From Flavobacterium album (GTDB lineage: Bacteria > Bacteroidota > Bacteroidia > Flavobacteriales > Flavobacteriaceae): 64,000 nucleotides of DNA. The position numbers and the translations under genes were made by a program. Shown here in pieces: positions 6,258 to 18,534 of this stretch (position 1 is the stretch's first letter; every line of letters starts with the position of its first letter). Under the pieces are notes generated by a model, which did no database searches, had not been told where the DNA came from, and saw only the letters and a program-made list of their open reading frames with translations. The DNA lies in the NCBI RefSeq assembly GCF_003096035.1, contig NZ_CP029186.1, positions 3,919,547 to 3,983,546 of the forward strand. Reading direction: 5' to 3'.

Positions 6258-7595
6258 ATGACTCCTAAAATCCTTGTTGTTGACGACGATACCGCTTTTT
6301 GCGTAATGCTTAAGACATTCCTTCAAAAAAAAGGATTTGAAGTGGTAAACGCATTTACGGCGCAGGAGGCGGAAGACGCCATAAAAAGCCAGTTTTTCGA
6401 TATTGTCCTTACTGATATACGCCTTCCGGACAGTGACGGCCTGCATATACTCAGGTTGGTAAAAGAAACTGCCATGGACAGCCAGGTAATATTAATGACA
6501 GGCTATACCGATATCAGGACAGCAGTAAATGCCATGAAGCTTGGCGCATTTGAGTATGTAGGCAAGCCCATTAACCCCGACGAGATACTCCATACCATTG
6601 GGTTAGCGCTCAATAAAAAATCCGGTAAGCAGACCCCTCCTTCTGAAAAGAAACAGGCAAAAGCATCCGGGGTACCGTTTGTAAAAGGCATCAGCAGCGA
6701 TTCTGCAAGGCTTCAGGAGCATATTGCCCTTGTAGCCCCTACCAACATGTCGGTGCTTATCATTGGCGACAGTGGTACCGGCAAAGAGCATATCGCCCAC
6801 TCCATCCATTCGCAAAGCAAAAGGGCATCACAGCCTTATATCGCGGTCGATTGTGGCGCGATACCGAAAGAGCTGGCGTCAAGCGAATTCTTTGGGCATA
6901 TAAAAGGCTCTTTTACCGGGGCAATAAACGACAAGACCGGCCATTTTGAAGCAGCTAACGGCGGTACGCTTTTCCTTGACGAAGTAGGCAACCTCAGCTA
7001 TGAAGTGCAGGTACAATTGCTCAGGGCATTGCAGGAACGCAAAATAAAACCCGTAGGCAGCAGCAATGAGATACAGGTAGACATACGGGTTGTGGCAGCT
7101 ACCAATGAAGACCTTGCCGAAGCGGTAAAGCGTGGCGACTTCAGGGAAGACCTGTACCACAGGCTCAACGAATTTTGTATTAAAGTCCCGCGCCTTTCTG
7201 AGCGCAAGCAGGACATCATGATATTTGCCAACCATTTTTTGGCGCAGGCCAATGACGACCTCGAAAAAGATATCGAAGGCTTTGATGAGGAAGTGACCAC
7301 GCTGTTTAAAAATTACAGCTGGCCGGGCAACCTCCGCGAAATGAAAAATATCATCAAGCGCTCGGTATTGCTCGAAAAATCCGCGACGATACATATTGAT
7401 GTACTGCCGCCGGAAATGCAGGAGGCTTCAAAACTGGAAGGCTCACTTTCGGGATATTCAAAAAGCAATGAGGAAGAAGCTATAAGACAGGCGCTCGAAA
7501 AGGCAAATTATAATAAATCTAAAGCTGCGATATTGCTTGATATCGACAGGAAAACACTGTACAATAAACTGAAGTTGTATAATATTGACCTTTAA
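6258..7595 (+). CDS. Sigma-54-dependent response regulator (NtrC/AtoC family)
   Basis: A 445-residue regulator with the full three-part layout. Residues 1-120 are a receiver (DD at 10-11, phospho-acceptor D53, K at 103). Residues 145-385 are a sigma-54-interacting AAA+ domain with Walker A GDSGTGKE (170-177), Walker B TLFLDE (237-242) and the sigma-54 contact loop GSFTGA (217-222). This loop carries Ser in place of the usual Ala of GAFTGA. Residues 405-445 are a Fis-type helix-turn-helix. It should activate sigma-54 promoters when phosphorylated. It converges on a hybrid histidine kinase gene 130 bases away, which is its probable partner. No target genes are evident. Confidence 0.93.
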   Translation: MTPKILVVDDDTAFCVMLKTFLQKKGFEVVNAFTAQEAEDAIKSQFFDIVLTDIRLPDSDGLHILRLVKETAMDSQVILMTGYTDIRTAVNAMKLGAFEYVGKPINPDEILHTIGLALNKKSGKQTPPSEKKQAKASGVPFVKGISSDSARLQEHIALVAPTNMSVLIIGDSGTGKEHIAHSIHSQSKRASQPYIAVDCGAIPKELASSEFFGHIKGSFTGAINDKTGHFEAANGGTLFLDEVGNLSYEVQVQLLRALQERKIKPVGSSNEIQVDIRVVAATNEDLAEAVKRGDFREDLYHRLNEFCIKVPRLSERKQDIMIFANHFLAQANDDLEKDIEGFDEEVTTLFKNYSWPGNLREMKNIIKRSVLLEKSATIHIDVLPPEMQEASKLEGSLSGYSKSNEEEAIRQALEKANYNKSKAAILLDIDRKTLYNKLKLYNIDL

Positions 7596-7724: not shown

Positions 7725-10136
7725 TCAGGCAACTTCTTTTTCCAGGGCATTGCACAATTCCTGTACTTCCCCGCATATCCTGTTTATGTAGCTTTCCAGT
7801 TCCGGCCAATCCAGCCCGGTGGCCCTGTCTTCAAGAGGCATGAGCAAACCTGCTATAGAATGCACTTCCATTTGCTTTAGCATCGGTATCATCCTGTGGG
7901 CGGTGGTTACAAGCTGCTCTCCGTCTTTCGTTTCCACTGCTTTTAGCAGTTCATCACAATTGGTTTTTGCGCTTTCAATAAAAGTAAGCACAATTGTCCT
8001 GAGGGAATCGGGGTCGTTATTGGTAAAACGCGAAAGGCTTTTAAGGTCATATAGTTTCCCCGAAGAACGCTTCTCTTCAACCGGTGTCTTTTGTACAGGC
8101 AGCTTCTCATCAAAAATTCCGGCCAATAGCTCCAAAAGCTGTTCAAACTGCACCGGTTTCGGATGATGGGCGGTAAACCCCCTGCTTACGAAATCATCAG
8201 CGCTAAGGTCTCTCCTGCCCGAAAGCGCGATTACCGGGAGCGACGCGATAGCAGGGTCCGGATGCTGCCTTATCCTGGCCAGCACTTCAAACCCATCTAC
8301 CGAAGGCATTTGTATATCAGTTAATACGATATCAAAATCGCCTTGTTCAAGTGTTGCTTCCAGAGCCGAGGGATTGATCTCGGTCTTTATTGCGGCAACA
8401 TAAGCCCCCAGCAATTCGCTCATTAGGGTAAGCTGCGTGCTGTCATCATCCACGACAAGAATACGTTTGTTCTTTAAAGCGGGGGGCTCCGGCTTCGATG
8501 CAGGGGCTGCTGTGCCCGGAGTGTCACTTTTACCCGCAATGCATGGTATTGAAATAGTAAATATAGACCCCTGCCCTTCGGCACTTTCAAGCGTTATGGT
8601 GCCGCCAAGCAGTTCGAGTATCTTTTTAGAGATCGTAAGGCCAAGCCCTGTTCCGCCAAACTTCTTTTCGATCCCGGCATGGGCCTGCGTGAACTCCTTA
8701 AATACATCGCTGTGCTTTTCCGGCGCTATACCTATTCCGGTATCCAGTACTGATATCAGTATGTCAAAACCTTCAATTTTGGCTGTAACCTCAACAGAAC
8801 CATCGCCCGTAAACTTTATGGCATTGCTGATAAGATTTGTAAGCACCTGCTTAATGCGGTACGGGTCAGAAATATAATTACGGTCCAGCTTATCATCGAT
8901 ATCCCAGTTGAGCTCGATATTCTTTTTCTGTGCCATGGGCTCCAGTGTCATACACGTCCCTTCAATAACATTTTTCATGTTGAAGACGGAGTTCTCGATA
9001 GCGATACGATTATTTTCCAGCCTTGAAAAATCAAGCAGGTCGTTTACCAGCTTCAGGATATAATCAGCCGACTGCTTGATATTGCCAAGGTACTGCCCTT
9101 GTTTTGGTGTAATTCCCGAATCTTTTATAAGGTCATGAAACCCGACGATGCTCCCCAGCGGTGTCTGCAGGTCGTGCGTAACAGTAGCCATCAGCATGGA
9201 TTTGGTGCGCAATAGCTCTTCATTCTCATGGTTGAGGAGCTCGAGCTGCTTCCTGTAGTTCTGGTTGGTAGTAAGGTCGCGGATGATAACCCAGGCAAAA
9301 ACAATGAGCAGGAAAAGCGTGATCGCCCCTACCCATGTCATTTTTTTTACGGTATCCGATATGGCTGCCTGTGACTGATCGATCCGGGCATAGGACTTTT
9401 CTATGAATTCTTTTTCCACCGAAGCCAGTATCGCCCTCAGCTGGTCGGATATGACACGGTTTTCATCCAACAGCTTTTGCTCTTTACGGTTAAGCACATT
9501 TTTGAGCTTCCTGTCCTTTACCAGCACATTGGTAATTACTTTATCGAAAATTATCGCAAGTGAGTCATTAGAAACCGGGAGCTTACTCAGGGAATCGAGC
9601 ATTTTTGGCGGAAGCGCAGAATAGATGAGCTGCTTGGCTTCGTAGGATCTTGTGGACTTTACGGGCTTGGTTTTATCCCATACGGAATCCCTGGAATTGT
9701 AAATGCGCTCGATAGAAAGGCTCAGGGCATCTTTTTGCCCATACTTCTTGCGGTAAAGGCCTATATCGGTAATGCTCTGCTTTTTTCTCGCCAGCAGCAT
9801 TTGTATCGAGTCGAATTTCGGCACCTGGCTTTCTTCTACATTTGCCTTAATAGCCTCGATATCATTGTTAATGCTGTCAATCAGTTGTTTGTAGCGATTA
9901 TAGTCTTTTTGGGACCCTGTCAGTATAGAGCTTCTGCCAATGGCTTCGGAAGCATAAAGATCGGCAATGGTGTTGCTGATGCGAATGATATTCTTATTGT
10001 CTTCACCGGTTTGTGCCGGTATAGCGATGCGTATGATCTCGCTGTAAAGGAACCACACGGAAAAAACGGCTATGGCAAATAACAGCACATAGCCGGCAAT
10101 GACTTTATATTTAACCGATCTTGGTTTTTGTACCAT
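7725..10136 (-). CDS. Hybrid sensor histidine kinase with receiver and Hpt domains
   Basis: An 803-residue inner-membrane sensor kinase. TM1 is at residues 12-32, a helical periplasmic sensor of about 230 residues follows, and TM2 is at 268-286. The HisKA domain has the phospho-acceptor H321 in VTHDLQTPLGS. The HATPase domain shows the N box NLISNAIKF (434-442) and the DTGIGI and GTGLGL loops. A receiver (553-670) has phospho-acceptor D607, and a C-terminal Hpt domain (about 695-800) has H747 in TTAHRMIP. All relay sites are therefore present in one chain, suggesting His-Asp-His-Asp transfer to a separate regulator, plausibly the convergent NtrC-type protein. The XRE gene lies 65 bases upstream on the same strand. 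Confidence 0.93.
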   Translation of the reverse strand: MVQKPRSVKYKVIAGYVLLFAIAVFSVWFLYSEIIRIAIPAQTGEDNKNIIRISNTIADLYASEAIGRSSILTGSQKDYNRYKQLIDSINNDIEAIKANVEESQVPKFDSIQMLLARKKQSITDIGLYRKKYGQKDALSLSIERIYNSRDSVWDKTKPVKSTRSYEAKQLIYSALPPKMLDSLSKLPVSNDSLAIIFDKVITNVLVKDRKLKNVLNRKEQKLLDENRVISDQLRAILASVEKEFIEKSYARIDQSQAAISDTVKKMTWVGAITLFLLIVFAWVIIRDLTTNQNYRKQLELLNHENEELLRTKSMLMATVTHDLQTPLGSIVGFHDLIKDSGITPKQGQYLGNIKQSADYILKLVNDLLDFSRLENNRIAIENSVFNMKNVIEGTCMTLEPMAQKKNIELNWDIDDKLDRNYISDPYRIKQVLTNLISNAIKFTGDGSVEVTAKIEGFDILISVLDTGIGIAPEKHSDVFKEFTQAHAGIEKKFGGTGLGLTISKKILELLGGTITLESAEGQGSIFTISIPCIAGKSDTPGTAAPASKPEPPALKNKRILVVDDDSTQLTLMSELLGAYVAAIKTEINPSALEATLEQGDFDIVLTDIQMPSVDGFEVLARIRQHPDPAIASLPVIALSGRRDLSADDFVSRGFTAHHPKPVQFEQLLELLAGIFDEKLPVQKTPVEEKRSSGKLYDLKSLSRFTNNDPDSLRTIVLTFIESAKTNCDELLKAVETKDGEQLVTTAHRMIPMLKQMEVHSIAGLLMPLEDRATGLDWPELESYINRICGEVQELCNALEKEVA

Positions 10137-12151: not shown

Positions 12152-12182
12152 CAAATGTAATTATTAAATGTGAATTTTTCAA
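12152..12182 (-). promoter_or_regulatory. Promoter of the acyl-CoA dehydrogenase gene
   Basis: On the minus strand, TTG (12182-12180), 20 bases and TACATTTG (12159-12152) match the flavobacterial consensus. This leaves a leader of about 25 bases before the start at 12118. It overlaps the upstream region of anmK. Confidence 0.75.
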
Positions 12183-12205
12183 CACGATTGCCTAATTTTA
12201 GCCCT

Positions 12206-13279
12206 ATGGAAGAAGAAAACTATAACGTTATAGCTGTAATGTCGGGAACTTCGCTCGACGGGGCGGATCTTGCCCATGTTTCACTGGCATATAAAGACGC
12301 AAAATGGGCTTTTAAAATTGCCGAAACCGCAACTGTACCGTATACGGATGAATGGGTCCAAACGCTAAAAGCTGCCGTAGAATTTACTCATGAGCAGCTG
12401 GAGCACCTTAATAAAGAATACACCACATTATTAGCAGGCATCATTAACGGCTTTATCAGGGAGCACGGCCTGGCAAATATAGATGCCATATGTTCGCACG
12501 GACATACCATACAGCACCGTCCGCAGGATGGCTACACACTACAGATAGGTAACCTTCCGGAAATTGCCACACTTACAGGACACAAAGTAATATGCGATTT
12601 CAGGGTACAGGATGTGGAACTGGGCGGGCAGGGTGCACCGTTAGTACCTATAGGCGACAGGCTGTTGTTTGGCCAATACAGGTATTGCCTTAACCTTGGC
12701 GGGTTTTCCAACATCTCTTTTGAAGAAGGACAGGACAGGATTGCCTTTGATATTTGCCCTGTTAATACGGTATTGAACTTTTATGCGAACAGGCTTGGAT
12801 TTGATTATGACGATGGCGGCTCGCTGGCATCCAATGGCAATTGTATACCCGGACTTTTGGAAGCGCTGAACAGCCTGCAATTTTACAGCTTGCCTTATCC
12901 AAAATCGCTTGGTTTTGAATTTGTTAAGGAAATGGTGCTTCCGCTAATGGAAAAATATGATACAGCTCCGGAAGATAAGCTCCGGACCTTCACAGAGCAC
13001 ATCGCATTTCAGATAGCTGAAGTGATAAAACAAAAAGGAGATAAGGGGGAATTGCTGGTAACGGGCGGCGGCGCTTACAATACGCTCCTCATAAACCGAA
13101 TGAAAGCTTTACTGCCGGATACACTTATATATATACCTGACGATACGACCATACAATTTAAGGAGGCGCTTATTTTTGCTCTGCTTGGAGTATTAAAACT
13201 AAGGAATGAGGACAATGTGCTTAGCAGTGTCACAGGCGCCGAAAAAGACCATAGCTCGGGCAGGATATACCTTCCTTAA
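12206..13279 (+). CDS. anmK: Anhydro-N-acetylmuramic acid kinase
   Basis: A 357-residue enzyme that phosphorylates and opens 1,6-anhydro-MurNAc during peptidoglycan recycling. The N-terminus has the family ATP motif VMSGTSLDGADLA, followed by CSHGHTIQHRP, LQIGNLPEIA and the VTGGGAYN segment near residue 300. The ATG at 12206 is chosen because the family begins within a few residues of the VMSGTSLDG strand. An in-frame ATG at 12170 would add 12 atypical residues and lies in the divergent promoter. A near-consensus TAATTTTA at 12193-12200 suggests an almost leaderless transcript. Its end overlaps the convergent response-regulator gene by four bases. Confidence 0.92.
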   Translation: MEEENYNVIAVMSGTSLDGADLAHVSLAYKDAKWAFKIAETATVPYTDEWVQTLKAAVEFTHEQLEHLNKEYTTLLAGIINGFIREHGLANIDAICSHGHTIQHRPQDGYTLQIGNLPEIATLTGHKVICDFRVQDVELGGQGAPLVPIGDRLLFGQYRYCLNLGGFSNISFEEGQDRIAFDICPVNTVLNFYANRLGFDYDDGGSLASNGNCIPGLLEALNSLQFYSLPYPKSLGFEFVKEMVLPLMEKYDTAPEDKLRTFTEHIAFQIAEVIKQKGDKGELLVTGGGAYNTLLINRMKALLPDTLIYIPDDTTIQFKEALIFALLGVLKLRNEDNVLSSVTGAEKDHSSGRIYLP

Positions 13280-13953
13280 AGTATACCCATTTTCTTTATG
13301 GCCTCAATAAGTTCGTGGTCATCTCCTCCCCTGCCCTGAAGCAACATGTTTTTCATGCGTGCTTTCCTTTCTTCAATATCGCTCAGGGAGAGCGGAATAT
13401 AATTAGGGATATTGGCTGTTTGTATCCCTTCGGTGAGGCGCATAAGTATCTGCTTGTCGTAGCTGTCCAGGTTATAATTATCAAATACTTTATCTTTCAG
13501 CGATTTTACTATTTTGCTGCTCAGGTAGGTATTTCCGGAAAAAATGATCTTGAATGCATTGAGAAACTCATCAATGTCTATATCGCTTTTGCAAAGGATC
13601 CCCTGTGGGTTTATTTCTTTTATAAGCCTGTCTATCAACGATGCTTCACTATGCATCGTAAGTATTATTATGACACAGTCCGGCAAAATGTCCCTTATAA
13701 GGATGCCAAGGTCAAGCCCGGAAAAAATATTCTTATCAGCATACGGAGGAAGGCTCAGGTCGAGATAGGCAATATTGAAAGGGTGTCCGGTACTTTGGGC
13801 ATTGGTAATTAAGTTGTAGGCCTGCTCACAATCCAGTGCTTTTGTAAAAATCAGATTATAACCTTCAAAATCTTCATCGGATAATACATTTATATATCCG
13901 TTAACTGTCATGGGGTGGTCATCGACAATTAAAATATTCAAATCCTCGCGCAT
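13276..13953 (-). CDS. Response regulator with atypical C-terminal domain (NarL-like)
   Basis: A 225-residue two-component regulator. The receiver (residues 5-135) has acidic DD at 11-12 and phospho-acceptor D65 in AYLDLSLPP. The switch Thr lies in ILTMHSEA and the conserved Lys in ILCKSD. The remaining 80 residues sit where NarL-type proteins carry a LuxR helix-turn-helix, but the match is weak (LDSYDKQILMRLTEGIQTANIPNYIPLS), so DNA binding is uncertain. It is divergent from the LytTR regulator and near a HisKA_3-type kinase, the class that normally pairs with NarL-type regulators. Confidence 0.85.
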   Translation of the reverse strand: MREDLNILIVDDHPMTVNGYINVLSDEDFEGYNLIFTKALDCEQAYNLITNAQSTGHPFNIAYLDLSLPPYADKNIFSGLDLGILIRDILPDCVIIILTMHSEASLIDRLIKEINPQGILCKSDIDIDEFLNAFKIIFSGNTYLSSKIVKSLKDKVFDNYNLDSYDKQILMRLTEGIQTANIPNYIPLSLSDIEERKARMKNMLLQGRGGDDHELIEAIKKMGIL

Positions 13954-14054
13954 AGAAACTAAAATATCAACAAATTTAACAAAAATACGGTTTGATTATA
14001 AAATCCTAATTTAAAATATATAACTTGCAAAAAATTTTTTTTAACTTTTTTTAA

Positions 14055-14780
14055 GTGCAGTATTCGTACCTCATAGTTGATGACAATGCAACCCATGCAC
14101 AGGAAGCCCTTAGACAGCTCGAAGGATTTCCTGAATATTTCTGTGTGGGTGTGGCAACTAACAGGAATGATGCCGTGAATAAAATCCTGGAACTGCAGCC
14201 CCAAATAGTATTTATTGAAATAAGCCCGGCAAGCAAAAAAAGTGATCTTTCGTTATCTATCATTACAGAGCTGCACCAGTTTATCGATATTCTTCCTTAC
14301 TTTATAGTAAACACTGCCACGCCAAAACATGCTTTTGAAGCTATAAGGGCAGGCGTATCGGATTACCTGCTTAAGCCGCTCAGCCAGTTCGAGCTCAGGA
14401 AAAGCCTGCTTAAGTTCCAAAAAACAAATCCGGCAGCAGCCAATAACACGATTTGTATAAAATCGTATGGGGATTACCAGTTCATATCACTGAACGAGAT
14501 CGTGTACCTGAAGGCCGACAATAATACTACCGACTTCCATTTACAGAATGGCAAAAAGGTCACAGCCTACAAAACGCTCAAGCATTATGAAGCGAGCCTG
14601 CCGTTTTTCTTCTTCAGGGTGCACAACAGTTATATAGTTAACAGCAACTATATCACCAGGATAAACACCGGAAAGTCTTTGTGCTACCTCAATAATAGCG
14701 ACTTGTCCATTTCTTTCTCCAAGACTTTTAAGGATAATATAGATACCATTATCCGTAAGATCGCACCCGAGTATTTATAA
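14055..14780 (+). CDS. LytTR-family response regulator with Glu at the phospho-acceptor site
   Basis: A 241-residue regulator. Residues 3-120 form a receiver with acidic D9-D10 and the Lys of YLLKP, but the phospho-acceptor position in IVFIEIS is Glu55 instead of Asp. Residues 140-238 form a LytTR DNA-binding domain (LNEIVYLKADNNTTDFHL, then FFRVHNSYIVN). The start is GTG at 14055 and an in-frame TAA lies immediately before it. Glu can mimic phospho-Asp, so it may act without phosphorylation; this is inference. It heads a strand containing the small lipoprotein and TPR histidine kinase genes, 183 bases downstream. Confidence 0.88.
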   Translation: MQYSYLIVDDNATHAQEALRQLEGFPEYFCVGVATNRNDAVNKILELQPQIVFIEISPASKKSDLSLSIITELHQFIDILPYFIVNTATPKHAFEAIRAGVSDYLLKPLSQFELRKSLLKFQKTNPAAANNTICIKSYGDYQFISLNEIVYLKADNNTTDFHLQNGKKVTAYKTLKHYEASLPFFFFRVHNSYIVNSNYITRINTGKSLCYLNNSDLSISFSKTFKDNIDTIIRKIAPEYL

Positions 14781-14879
14781 AAATACTTCATTTACCCTTC
14801 AAATCGGTCGAGTTACTCGCATACGGGTATCATTCACTAAACCACCTGTAAATCATAGCAGTTAACGTTTTTTTAGTCC

Positions 14880-14887
14880 TACTTTTG
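14880..14887 (+). promoter_or_regulatory. -7 element before the small lipoprotein gene
   Basis: TACTTTTG matches TAnnTTTG exactly and would give an mRNA leader of about 70 bases for the lipoprotein at 14964. No well-spaced TTG is visible. Confidence 0.45.
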
Positions 14888-14963
14888 CTTCAGAATTAAT
14901 CGCAGAACGGTAATTCAAAAAGCAAAATTTAAATAAAAAACATCTATAAAAAACCTTACTACC

Positions 14964-15134
14964 ATGAAAAAGTTTATACTAACTATCGCTCTTATTGCAA
15001 CACTTGGCGCTACTACTGTTTCTTGTTCAACTGATGACAGCGCACTAACTGATACATCTGCAGACAGCCTTGGGCAACAGCTACCTGGTAATGGCGATGT
15101 AGGCCTTCCAAAACCGACAACTCCGAAGCCATAA
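14964..15134 (+). CDS. Very small lipoprotein (56 residues)
   Basis: A short gene translated by hand. Residues 1-20 are a lipoprotein signal (MKKFILTIALIATLGATTVS) followed by lipobox Cys21. The mature peptide is only 36 residues, acidic at first (CSTDDSALTD) and ending in a Pro/Lys/Thr-rich tail (GLPKPTTPKP). The Ser-Thr-Asp-Asp after Cys resembles the export signal that sends flavobacterial lipoproteins to the cell surface. It lies between a LytTR regulator and a TPR histidine kinase and ends 25 bases before a strong hairpin. No family was recognised. A signal or sensor-ligand role is inferred from position only. Confidence 0.75.
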   Translation: MKKFILTIALIATLGATTVSCSTDDSALTDTSADSLGQQLPGNGDVGLPKPTTPKP

Positions 15135-15159
15135 TTGGCATTTAACATAAAATATATTA

Positions 15160-15196
15160 TTTTTGAGGCAATAGTCGAACACTATTGCCTCAAAAA
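15160..15196 (+). terminator. Perfect hairpin between the small lipoprotein and kinase genes
   Basis: Arms 15160-15175 and 15181-15196 are perfect 16-base complements around the loop CGAAC. The right arm ends AAAAA and is followed by TTTT. The downstream kinase starts on TTG at 15199, two bases after the stem. It could terminate transcription, attenuate, or hide the kinase start site. Confidence 0.8.
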
Positions 15197-15198
15197 TT

Positions 15199-17238
15199 TT
15201 GAATAAGTACCTATTATATATACTTATCCCGGCTCTCTGCCTCACCTTTTTTTCCTGCGAAAAATCTTCGGGGGGTAAAAGCAAATCCCAAAATACGATT
15301 GAAAAGCTTTTTGATGAGGGCGAGAATACCAATACCGACCAAAAAGTAAGAGAATCCAGAATTGATTCTGCCTACACCTTATTTTCCAACAATGACAACG
15401 ATTCTATAACGCGGTTTTTCTACCGCAGGGCAACCGTTGCTTACTACGACCTTAATAAATATGACAAGTCCCTGCGGACAAGCCATAAAGTATACGACAT
15501 GGGCACCGAGGCAAAAGATTCGGTAACCATGGCCAAAGCCTCTTACTTTTCGGGTCTATCCCATTCGGAAAAAGGGAACAATGACAGCGCCTTTTATTAT
15601 TACGGGCAGGCAGAAAGGCTTTTTCTTGATATTAATGACTCCAGCCTTTTAGGGGAGATAGGATTATATAAAGCCTACATTTATTATAACATAGGGGAAT
15701 ATGTGCAGTGCGAAAGCCAGGCTATCAAAGCCCTGCGATTGCTGGAGGCAAAAAACAGCACTATAGATATCTATAAATGCAACAACCTCATAGGGAGTGC
15801 GCTGTTAGGCGAAGGCAATTTTACGGAAGCTATCAAATATTACCGGGCAGCTTTGGGATTGCTTGAAAACCTCAGGAAAGAAGGTTACCCTGACAATATT
15901 ATATCCAACTACAAAGCATACTGTTACAATAATATGGGCCGGGTATATATAAAGCAGAAAGATTACGATGACGCCATCCGCATCTACGAAGAGGCTTTTC
16001 CTGAAATTGACCAACGAATCATAGAGCCTGCGCTTTATGCCATGATGATAAATAACCTGGCGTATGTAAGATTCAAATCCGGGAACAATGCCGGCCTTCC
16101 TGATATGTTCTACCGCTCATTGCACATAAGGGACAGTATCGGGGACCGTTCGGGCGTTGTGGCCAGCAACCTGAGCCTGGGGGAATACTTTGCGAGCCGC
16201 CGCGATACTGCCCGTGCGATAATGTACCTGAAATTTGCTTATGATGGTGCCCGCAAAATAAAAAGTACCGACGATATACTTACCACCACTAAAATGTTAT
16301 CGGATATTGACCGTAAAGACGGCCCTTTTTATGCCGACCAATATATCCAGGTGAGCGAGGCATTGCAGGAAACCGCTAAAGCCAACAGGGGTAAGTTTGC
16401 CAGGATAGAATATGAAACCGACAAGCTACAGAACGAGAAAGAGGCCCTCGACCGGAAAAACAACTATATAATGGGTGCATCGGTAATTGTATTGCTGTTC
16501 GTCGCGGCCATATTCATAATATATTACCTGAATTCCCGGAACAAGGAACTTTTGCTTATACAGGAACAGCAAAAAGCAAGCGAGGAAATTTACCAGCTTA
16601 TGTTTGAGCAGCAGTCCAATATCGAATCGGCCCGTACCGAAGAAAAAACGCGTATCGCCATGGAACTCCACGACGGCATACTCAACAACATCTATGCTGT
16701 CCGGCTAAACCTTGAGTTCATCAATAAAAAGGCCGATGAAGAATCTGTAATAAAGCGAAAGGAATACATTAAGGAACTGCAGAACGTGGAAAGTGAGATA
16801 CGCGCTGTATCGCACGACCTTAGCCGCAATGATATCTTTAACCAGGGACAGGATTTTGGCACCATATTGAAATTCATGATAACCTCCCAGAAGAATAACT
16901 TCAATACGGGCTTCGATGCGGAGATTGACCCTACAATAGACTGGGATGCCATGAACAACACCTTTAAGATAAATATTTACAGGATCGTGCAGGAGGCATT
17001 GCAAAACATCAATAAATATTCGCAGGCCGAAAATGCCGGCGTAGAGATAATGCAGCAGGGCAACAACCTGAACATACTCGTTACAGATGACGGCATAGGG
17101 TTCGAACCTGAAAAAGCGAAAGGCGGTATCGGGCTGCGCAACCTGCGTAAACGGGCCGACTCGCTGAAGGGCATACTGAACATCACCTCGCAGCCTGGCA
17201 AAGGCGCATCCATTGAAGTAATATTCCCGTTAGTATAA
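15199..17238 (+). CDS. TPR-containing lipoprotein sensor histidine kinase (HisKA_3)
   Basis: A 679-residue sensor kinase. The N-terminus is a lipoprotein-type signal with Cys20 (LCLTFFSC). Residues 50-400 are TPR-like helical repeats (GNFTEAIKYYRAAL, KDYDDAIRIYEEAF) outside the inner membrane, TM is at 423-444, and a coiled coil follows. HisKA_3 has H491 in MELHDGILNN, and a HATPase has DDGIGFEPE and GIGLRNL near the C-terminus. The start is TTG at 15199: an in-frame stop lies at 15172-15174, no ATG or GTG lies between, and the next Met is residue 101. HisKA_3 kinases usually pair with NarL-type regulators, such as the one at 13276-13953. The ligand is unknown; the upstream small lipoprotein is a candidate. 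Confidence 0.9.
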   Translation: MNKYLLYILIPALCLTFFSCEKSSGGKSKSQNTIEKLFDEGENTNTDQKVRESRIDSAYTLFSNNDNDSITRFFYRRATVAYYDLNKYDKSLRTSHKVYDMGTEAKDSVTMAKASYFSGLSHSEKGNNDSAFYYYGQAERLFLDINDSSLLGEIGLYKAYIYYNIGEYVQCESQAIKALRLLEAKNSTIDIYKCNNLIGSALLGEGNFTEAIKYYRAALGLLENLRKEGYPDNIISNYKAYCYNNMGRVYIKQKDYDDAIRIYEEAFPEIDQRIIEPALYAMMINNLAYVRFKSGNNAGLPDMFYRSLHIRDSIGDRSGVVASNLSLGEYFASRRDTARAIMYLKFAYDGARKIKSTDDILTTTKMLSDIDRKDGPFYADQYIQVSEALQETAKANRGKFARIEYETDKLQNEKEALDRKNNYIMGASVIVLLFVAAIFIIYYLNSRNKELLLIQEQQKASEEIYQLMFEQQSNIESARTEEKTRIAMELHDGILNNIYAVRLNLEFINKKADEESVIKRKEYIKELQNVESEIRAVSHDLSRNDIFNQGQDFGTILKFMITSQKNNFNTGFDAEIDPTIDWDAMNNTFKINIYRIVQEALQNINKYSQAENAGVEIMQQGNNLNILVTDDGIGFEPEKAKGGIGLRNLRKRADSLKGILNITSQPGKGASIEVIFPLV

Positions 17239-17307: not shown

Positions 17308-18534
17308 ATGAAAGATTTACTAAGTAAATTCGAAAATAAACAACCTGAAATAATATTCAACTGGAAAGATACCGAAACCGAGGCTGAAGGCTGGACAGTG
17401 ATCAATTCACTTCGCGGTGGCGCTGCCGGCGGTGGTACCAGGATGCGCAAAGGCCTTGACATGAACGAGGTGCTTTCGCTGGCCAAAACCATGGAAGTAA
17501 AATTTTCGGTTTCCGGCCCTGCAATAGGGGGCGCAAAATCGGGAATTAACTTTGACCCGAACGACCCACGCAAAAAAGGCGTGCTGCAAAGATGGTACAA
17601 AGCCGTATCCCCATTACTGAAAAGCTATTACGGAACCGGCGGCGACCTTAATGTAGACGAGATACACGAGGTGATACCAATGACAGAGGAGTGTGGCGTA
17701 TGGCATCCGCAGGAAGGTGTTTTCAACGGGCATTTTAAGCCAAGCGAAGCGGACAAGATAAACAGGATAGGCCAGCTGCGCCAGGGTGTTGTGAAGGTTA
17801 TCGAGAACCCTGCCTTCTCCCCTGACGTGAACAGGAAATATACGGTGGCAGACATGATTACCGGATATGGCGTTGCTGAGGCAGTACGTCATTTTTACAA
17901 CATTTACGGAGGTGACGTTAAAGGCAAAAAAGCCATTGTACAGGGCTTTGGTAACGTAGGTTCTGCGGCGGCATTCTACCTTGCTGAGATGGGCGCTAAA
18001 GTAGTGGGCATCATCGACCGTGACGGCGGGCTTATCAATAAAGAAGGCTTTACTTTTGAAGAGATCAAGCAACTGTTCCTTAATAAGGACGGCAACAAAC
18101 TTGTGGCTGACAATATGATCCCGTTTGAGCAGATCAATGCGGAAATATGGAATATAGGCGCGGAAATATTTACGCCATGTGCCGCTTCGAGATTGGTTAC
18201 CAAAGAGCAGATAGACAGCATGATCGCTTCGGGCCTTGAGGTGATATCTTGTGGCGCCAACGTGCCTTTTGCCGATAAAGAAATATTCTTCGGCCCGATC
18301 ATGGAAACTACCGACAGCAAAGTAAGCCTTATCCCTGATTTCATTTCAAACTGCGGTATGGCAAGGGTATTTGCTTATTTCATGGAGAAAAAAGTAAGCA
18401 TGACCGATGATGCGATATTCAATGACGCGTCAACAATAATCGGCAATGCGATACAAAAAGTACATGCACAAAACAGCAGCAAAACAGGCATTAGTGCTAC
18501 GGCATTTGAAATTGCCTTAAAGCAACTGGTGTAA
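17308..18534 (+). CDS. Glu/Leu/Phe/Val dehydrogenase
   Basis: A 408-residue NAD(P)-dependent amino-acid dehydrogenase, interconverting an amino acid and its 2-oxo acid with ammonia. Motifs are GGAAGGGTRMRKG (residues 32-44), catalytic Lys in GPAIGGAKSGINF (near 75), the TGGDLNVDE segment, and the Rossmann site VQGFGNVGSAAAFYLAEMGA near 220. The length suits the short Glu/Leu/Phe/Val branch. Glutamate or leucine cannot be chosen from sequence alone. It has its own promoter and a strong terminator. Confidence 0.92.
   Translation: MKDLLSKFENKQPEIIFNWKDTETEAEGWTVINSLRGGAAGGGTRMRKGLDMNEVLSLAKTMEVKFSVSGPAIGGAKSGINFDPNDPRKKGVLQRWYKAVSPLLKSYYGTGGDLNVDEIHEVIPMTEECGVWHPQEGVFNGHFKPSEADKINRIGQLRQGVVKVIENPAFSPDVNRKYTVADMITGYGVAEAVRHFYNIYGGDVKGKKAIVQGFGNVGSAAAFYLAEMGAKVVGIIDRDGGLINKEGFTFEEIKQLFLNKDGNKLVADNMIPFEQINAEIWNIGAEIFTPCAASRLVTKEQIDSMIASGLEVISCGANVPFADKEIFFGPIMETTDSKVSLIPDFISNCGMARVFAYFMEKKVSMTDDAIFNDASTIIGNAIQKVHAQNSSKTGISATAFEIALKQLV

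Follow-up and report, generated by a model that had tools for sequence, protein, structure and literature searches.

A tiny lipoprotein gene beside a TPR histidine kinase in Flavobacterium album as the candidate precursor of a peptide ligand

Background

Does a gene of only 56 codons, lying directly upstream of a sensor histidine kinase in Flavobacterium album, encode a genuine protein and, if so, could that protein carry the ligand of the kinase? The question is raised by a locus in the final 64 kb of the 3.98-Mb single-contig genome of this bacterium (this stretch of 64,000 nucleotides is called the window below), in which genes for a NarL-like response regulator, a LytTR regulator, the small lipoprotein and a kinase with a TPR sensor domain lie together. 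A sequence-only reading of the window had pointed out this cluster and had proposed, from gene position, that the lipoprotein or its cleaved tail is the ligand of the kinase. We confirmed the cluster, with all four open reading frames (ORFs) at the coordinates assigned to them (Table 1). We also consider it quite probable that the lipoprotein is the carrier of a peptide recognized by the neighboring kinase as its ligand, a proposal supported by gene pairing, selection, clade-level co-variation and the existence of related precursors built of peptide repeats, with binding, release and signaling as its conjectural part.

Results and discussion

The 56-codon gene encodes a conserved lipoprotein

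The product has a lipobox, TVSC, and its mature form has 36 residues, both in line with the earlier description. A search of 398 genomes of the genus recovered the lipoprotein at 19 places with E < 5e-4, the window's own included, and 15 of the 20 fetched lipoprotein loci share the gene order of the window; weak matches to the signal peptide are much commoner, being found in 299 of the 398 genomes at E <= 1. Among 16 lipoproteins of the clade to which the window's system belongs (the window clade), the motif CSxDDS at the start of the mature protein is invariant, as are Gly44, Pro49 and Pro51 of the C-terminal tail, and the middle region is unconserved except for Ala33. The start of the mature protein, CSTDD, had been likened to the surface-export signal of flavobacterial lipoproteins. 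This likeness holds as a resemblance to SDDFE, given in excerpts of PMC5080379 as the export consensus following Cys+1 in F. johnsoniae, but does not extend to identity with it.

The ratio of nonsynonymous to synonymous divergence (dN/dS) of the gene was 0.08–0.28 in ten close pairs, pointing to purifying selection and providing the coding signal whose absence would have spoken for a spurious ORF; an eleventh pair (L070/L069) was saturated at silent sites. The corresponding ratio of proportions of differences (pN/pS), computed by region from all eleven pairs, was lowest in the tail (0.19), followed by the signal peptide (0.27) and the spacer (0.39), and the C-terminal tail is thus the most constrained part of the lipoprotein. 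Conservation alongside the kinase, the other condition whose failure would have refuted the ligand idea, was also seen: a kinase search at >=45% identity gave nine distinct window-clade kinases, eight of which have the small gene upstream, and the ninth lies on a contig whose end leaves only 129 nt of upstream sequence. The 56-aa protein matches no family in Pfam or NCBIfam, which might be taken to favor a chance neighbor of the kinase or a spurious ORF. This account has a negligible probability in our view, being refuted by the conservation, purifying selection and synteny described above and by the pairing counts that follow.

Small secreted ORFs precede most TPR kinases sampled in the family

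The pair of small ORF and TPR kinase, which the sequence-only reading had suggested seeking in relatives, proved to be widespread. A signal-bearing small ORF ends <=170 nt upstream of 110 of the 148 distinct TPR kinases in the union of kinase-chosen samples, and smaller samples drawn by kinase similarity gave 43/69 and 72/85, the latter being a named set in which three kinases have <350 nt of upstream sequence. The limit of 170 nt applies to the 72/85 and 110/148 counts; in distinct counts, kinases with identical last 300 residues were collapsed, and the contributing sets overlap in genomes. The rule defining a small ORF (ATG start, K or R near the N-terminus, a hydrophobic stretch and a length of 35–130 aa) is crude in that it overlooks some, for example at L090, and admits false ones, as at L106 and at L096, where an overlapping ORF was taken. 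Under a common rule with a limit of 150 nt, in which small ORFs within larger ones were dropped (a filter absent from the three counts above), a small secreted ORF was detected before 60 of 86 kinases, a set that includes 20 loci chosen via the lipoprotein, as against 5 of 166 control genes.

For the analyses below, 125 precursors were drawn from 163 distinct kinases, again including the 20 loci fetched by lipoprotein similarity, among which L080 was taken as the neighbor of a kinase match. In five loci (L076–L080) a similar lipoprotein stands upstream of a different, shorter TPR kinase that is 25–26% identical, and a regulator-sized gene (222–223 aa), matching the NarL-like regulator of the window in three of the five, follows that kinase. 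The pairing extends to other genera of the family, where a small ORF precedes 11 of 12 kinases (12 of the 16 matching genomes were fetched). Furthermore, genomes G004, G006, G008, G013 and G030 each contain two or three precursor-kinase pairs with different tails.

Sister precursors carry tandem copies of a short peptide

Most precursors of the largest clade have a signal peptide but lack a lipobox, and many of them bear internal repeats. The units, which are exact copies by construction, include LVGTQSTGGNKKVD in three copies (L007), IIGGNATGGNMKLD in six (L010), LTGGASVGGNKKID in four (L166, F. rhamnosiphilum) and EIGGGNADRRS in six (L168); a precursor from another genus of the family (L228) has six copies of CDDCAHDSDDRET, whose paired cysteines could allow disulfides or modification. 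Of the 125 precursors, 34 contain an exact internal repeat of >=7 residues, a feature seen in 35 of the 3267 remaining small ORFs of the loci; 30 of the 34 proteins terminate within three residues of a unit's end. Across 41 arrays, neighboring copies differ with a pS of 0.29, a pN of 0.018 and a pN/pS of 0.063, values that reflect silent drift under a retained protein sequence, pN being lowered somewhat by the location of copies via an exact shared core, with windows of <=40% mismatches admitted.

Several loci (L015, L017, L023, L149, L158, L161 and L220) encode multiple scaffolds with the same or a similar tail. Three of these (L149, L158 and L220) have three consecutive precursors each: two similar lipoproteins ending in DP(V/I)IIPKKD and one non-lipoprotein ending in (N/S)PILI(V/I)KND. 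What all precursor classes have in common is a short peptide located at the C-terminus or close to it.

The repeat class also bears on whether the lipoprotein might act as an uncleaved partner, that is, as a tethered periplasmic regulator (for instance an inhibitor or an envelope-stress reporter) that binds the TPR kinase of its own cell through the tail and is never released. Such a role, possible though on balance doubtful, would agree with the lipidation signal of the window clade and with the common extracytoplasmic side of sensor and lipoprotein, and the co-variation of tail and TPR domain described below is compatible with either mode; the release of several ligands, however, better fits a class that mostly lacks the lipobox and in which identical units are multiplied. 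It overlaps with the ligand-carrier proposal, which itself allows tethered presentation.

In public records, some window-type lipoproteins go under cytochrome C551 and several repeat precursors under 3-oxoacyl-ACP reductase or general stress protein YciG; all these labels are probably annotation errors. A SecD/F-GG match to one repeat precursor was taken as a chance effect of low complexity, and precomputed PF26811 tags on three homologues were not reproduced by our Pfam search.

Co-variation of the tail with the TPR domain

The sequence-only reading had proposed to examine whether the tail co-varies with the TPR domain. A linear test over 120 pairs linked tail distance to TPR distance given kinase-domain distance (r 0.29, p 0.0005), the converse value for tail and kinase domain given the TPR domain being 0.04 (p 0.07). 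Rank-based partial Mantel tests within clades likewise linked the tail to the TPR domain, both in the window clade (r 0.37, p 0.007, n=17) and in the repeat clade (r 0.31, p 0.001, n=51). The signal peptide tracks the kinase domain in the repeat clade, in the systems designated type 2 and over all pairs, and neither domain in the window clade; its link to the TPR domain is weak and confined to the linear all-pairs test (0.07, p 0.04). Since Mantel tests leave some shared ancestry, we treat the co-variation as supporting evidence rather than proof.

The sensor domain and its relation to peptide receptors

Pfam searches recovered TPR, HisKA_3 and HATPase domains in the kinase, and a single hydrophobic helix at about residues 423–444 precedes the HisKA_3 and HATPase domains, giving an overall architecture of TPR, transmembrane (TM) helix, HisKA_3 and HATPase. 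The lipobox Cys20 is invariant in 24 of 24 aligned kinases. Given this cysteine and the position of the helix, an extracytoplasmic location, shared with the lipoprotein, is to be expected for the TPR domain.

When the kinase profile was compared with the PDB, it matched RapI (4.4e-10), RapH (8.5e-10), 5dbk (1.1e-9; the entry called NprR in the Foldseek output) and NprR 4gpk (7.3e-9), as well as RapF. Designed TPRs, LGN-type proteins and kinesin light chains ranked ahead of Rap and NprR in this search, and Foldseek with a window-type model similarly placed LGN/Pins first, the earliest Rap-pheromone entry being at rank 22 and NprR at rank 43. By these comparisons Rap and NprR appear to be the nearest bacterial receptor folds to the TPR domain of the kinase; because generic TPR proteins score higher, the match shows the fold class only.

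AlphaFold2 was given natural in-frame stretches of precursor, gap and kinase, with stops read as Gly and cognate chains only. In a window-type chain (L061), residues 22–31 (GDIALPRPTT) formed a block with a mean per-residue confidence (pLDDT) of 58, as against 33–39 around it, and in a repeat-type chain (L147) the last copy (residues 66–77) had blocks of 42 and 51, as against 21–29 in earlier copies; the remaining precursor stretches of both chains had a pLDDT < 50. In these models the pattern is consistent with the docking of one tail.

A direct-repeat array upstream and the receivers of the two regulators

Cores of the form T(T/C)AC(T/C) exactly 21 bp apart occur upstream of the precursors in 51 pairs, compared with 0.6 in dinucleotide shuffles, and a triple array with this spacing precedes 42 of the 125 precursors, compared with 0 in shuffles. 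The triple array was found at 37 of 74 LytTR-linked precursors and at 5 of 51 others. A clade-A matrix built from 14 sites, the window's included, gave the window array a score of 84 as against -2.6 for the next site in the window, and a repeat-clade matrix built without the window site also placed the array first and second (14788 and 14809), the scores being negative (-8.5 and -12.1). Excerpts of PMC11347149 describe canonical LytTR operators as 9-bp direct repeats spaced 10–13 bp apart, and mention triple repeats for RcoM and CoxC. On this basis the window array may be regarded as a putative LytTR-type operator in front of the precursor.

The receivers of the two regulators differ at the phospho-acceptor. 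Of the 97 LytTR homologues in the fetched loci, 93 have a residue other than Asp there (Glu in 79), three have Asp and one a gap; all 151 NarL-type homologues have Asp. As the LytTR receiver lacks the Asp and the NarL-type regulators keep it, the kinase probably signals through the latter, making the NarL-like regulator its likely phosphotransfer partner. Canonical phosphorylation of the LytTR protein is unlikely with such a receiver, and classical autoinduction through it is unsupported by the receiver residues; the protein may instead be constitutively active or otherwise regulated.

The gap between lipoprotein and kinase genes contains a hairpin with a folding energy of -22.1 kcal/mol (z -5.6). 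Strong hairpins (z <= -3 against mononucleotide shuffles) occur in 73 of 124 precursor-kinase gaps. The window hairpin scores as terminator-like on the minus strand only and has no plus-strand T run; a plus-strand hairpin followed by a T run was seen in 61 of 107 other precursor-kinase gaps as against 5 of 18 window-clade gaps. It is possible that the hairpin terminates the lipoprotein transcript. The kinase has a TTG start one base past the hairpin, TTG being the called start in 98 of 125 kinases under a longest-ORF rule, and such a start could keep kinase levels low. The consensus of the -7 promoter box is TAnnTTTG; one stretch that matches it, TATTTTTG, recurs in most of the window-clade lipoprotein-kinase gaps listed.

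The array and the hairpin, which separates precursor from kinase, could also be accommodated if the lipoprotein were merely an output gene, a surface protein under LytTR control that chances to adjoin the kinase and whose tail functions elsewhere. We regard this as unlikely, for precursors also precede kinases that have no detected LytTR gene nearby (L076–L080; 51 of the 125 precursors), and the tail of the window clade tracks the TPR domain rather than the kinase domain.

Organization of the locus

The features of the locus are collected in Table 1. The receiver domain of the NarL-like regulator falls slightly below the Pfam cut-off (29.7 as against 30.2 bits), and the LytTR regulator has both receiver and LytTR domains in Pfam. 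An Rfam scan of the window returned tRNAs only.

Table 1. Features of the lipoprotein-kinase locus, in positions of the window
Feature	Position	Strand	Remark
AnmK gene	12170-13279	+	
NarL-like response regulator, 225 aa, phospho-acceptor Asp present	13276-13953	-	divergent from the other three genes
LytTR DNA-binding regulator, pseudo-receiver (Glu55 at the Asp position), GTG start	14055-14780	+	
Triple direct repeat, putative LytTR operator; cores at 14793, 14814 and 14835, spacing 21 bp	14788-14850	+	
TACTTTTG, matches TAnnTTTG; putative -7 box of lipoprotein promoter	14880-14887	+	conserved in 17 aligned upstream regions
56-aa lipoprotein, lipidated Cys21; proposed precursor/carrier of peptide ligand	14964-15134	+	
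C-terminal tail GNGDVGLPKPTTPKP, lipoprotein residues 42-56; proposed ligand segment	15087-15131	+	
TATTTTTG, matches TAnnTTTG; may be the -7 box of an independent kinase promoter, at the hairpin edge (inferred)	15158-15165	+	from sequence
17-bp hairpin separating lipoprotein and kinase genes; candidate terminator or expression tuning	15159-15197	+	
Sensor kinase, 679 aa: lipobox Cys20, TPR ~50-415, TM ~423-444, HisKA_3, HATPase; TTG start	15199-17238	+	
GDH gene	17308-18534	+	

In the syntenic loci of the window clade, the interval from AnmK to FolC has no further called gene, and thus no dedicated gene for precursor processing or export (L071 has small ORFs at the place of GDH). This bears on a bacteriocin-type function, in which the precursors would be antimicrobial peptides and the kinase would sense them in order to control production or immunity. 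A precedent exists in the Sil-type quorum sensing that governs a bacteriocin in Streptococcus anginosus, according to excerpts of PMC9298176; nevertheless, as the AnmK–FolC interval of these loci holds the named genes only, with no exporter, modification or immunity gene, we think this account very improbable.

Elsewhere in the window, a further regulator gene at 6258-7595 (product MTPKILVVDDD...) has a small secreted ORF (MKSIVTAIAFISALSANAGPAHHETND...) upstream of it. A hybrid histidine kinase at 7725-10136 has a counterpart in 9 of the 15 syntenic loci (53–69% identity); among the rest, L064 is cut by a contig end.

A proposed mechanism and its standing

In the scheme that we favor, we infer binding, processing, transfer from cell to cell, the phosphotransfer partners and the sign of the effect on the kinase. 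The small lipoprotein would be an exported carrier, or precursor, of a short C-terminal peptide acting as ligand of the adjacent kinase, and lipoprotein export would take it out of the cytoplasm and perhaps as far as the cell surface. Either set free by proteolysis or displayed on the tethered protein, the tail GNGDVGLPKPTTPKP would dock within the groove of the TPR superhelix outside the cytoplasm and so change kinase activity. The phosphoryl group would most likely pass to the NarL-like regulator with its retained Asp, and the LytTR protein, whose receiver lacks this residue, would bind the 21-bp repeat array and drive transcription of the lipoprotein gene. Sister systems would follow the same design with a secreted precursor containing 2–6 copies of the peptide.

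A number of observations weigh against this scheme. No precursor was detected at 38 of the 148 kinases. One of these, the L004 kinase, is 41–42% identical to that of the window and has no detectable precursor upstream; a decayed gene is not the explanation, as its ORF is intact (670 aa) and the stop that had been counted is the end of the match. There was likewise no credible precursor before eight related kinases from two other families of the order (L243–L250), the only small ORF among them, one of 116 residues at L248, being judged spurious. The co-variation is also divided: set beside the links found in the window clade, in the repeat clade and in the linear test, the type-2 systems are borderline (rank-based tail-TPR 0.21, p 0.076, n=13), and with all 120 pairs pooled the rank-based partial Mantel test gave no tail-TPR link (r 0.013, p 0.29), the tail following the kinase domain instead (r 0.19, p 0.001). 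The tail of the repeat clade tracks the kinase domain as well (r 0.20, p 0.002). In the structure models the rise in pLDDT is small and confidence low, and the artificial chain includes the signal peptide of the kinase. Furthermore, a surface location of the lipoprotein combined with inner-membrane tethering of the TPR domain would require either that the tail be released or that it function in the periplasm.

Taken together, the relatives point to a family, not described so far, in which helical-repeat kinases would read peptide signals. We lean, with some reserve, toward the wider view that the Flavobacteriaceae possess a large and diversified language of peptide pheromones, in which precursors with 1–6 C-terminal peptide copies, tethered as lipoproteins or secreted, are matched to their own extracytoplasmic TPR histidine kinases, genomes with several pairs would have separate channels, and a non-phosphorylatable LytTR protein would set precursor output. 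Bacteroidota form a major phylum with members in soil, water and the gut, and to our knowledge no peptide pheromone with a dedicated kinase has been described for them; among the matches listed in a search of the open-access literature, with subscription papers outside its scope, there was no description of such a peptide-TPR-kinase system. The precursors may have been overlooked until now because they are tiny and poorly annotated. As the repeats spell out candidate peptides, synthetic versions of these would allow a direct test of the idea in flavobacteria. According to Table 2 of PMC10197871, all five lines of F. johnsoniae that had coevolved with Burkholderia thailandensis carried a mutation in either FJOH_RS09515 (LyTR) or FJOH_RS09520 (histidine kinase), two genes that might or might not be such a pair.

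Comparison with known peptide-signaling systems

The proposed system is like the RRNPP(A) systems of Firmicutes (Rap, NprR, PlcR, PrgX, Rgg) in that a TPR superhelix is the candidate peptide receptor and, as with Phr, a small exported precursor gene adjoins the receptor gene. The active Phr peptide sits at the C-terminal end of its precursor, where the proposed flavobacterial ligand would also lie. RRNPP receptors, as the excerpts consulted describe them, are cytoplasmic and require peptide import, whereas the flavobacterial TPR domain, from a Gram-negative genus, is predicted to be extracytoplasmic and is fused to a membrane histidine kinase; a cytoplasmic receptor without a kinase or TM segment of its own, which typifies the RRNPP systems, is thus not what is found here. 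Moreover, the best overall matches of the flavobacterial kinase are LGN/Pins and designed TPRs, not Rap.

With the Agr, ComCDE and Sil systems it shares a locus that combines a peptide precursor with a sensor kinase and a LytTR regulator, and an array of LytTR-type direct repeats, the predicted operator, before the precursor. The AgrC and ComD kinases are polytopic, in contrast to the flavobacterial kinase, which belongs to the HisKA_3 type and has one TM helix and a TPR sensor. Differences are also seen in the window clade's lack of AgrB or of an exporter or protease gene between AnmK and FolC, and in the LytTR receiver, which has Glu55 in place of a phospho-acceptor, a second, NarL-type regulator keeping the Asp.

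Enterococcal sex pheromones derive from lipoproteins, namely from the cleaved signal peptide. The association of a signal with a lipoprotein precursor is common to both, but the conserved part of the flavobacterial protein is the C-terminal tail. Yeast alpha-factor is made from a secreted precursor with several identical peptide copies, and resembles the repeat precursors only in how it works, the sequences, receptor and processing machinery being unrelated. Our verdict from these comparisons is that, although membership in RRNPP and in the Agr/Com group fails on defining features, the system would work like a peptide pheromone system.

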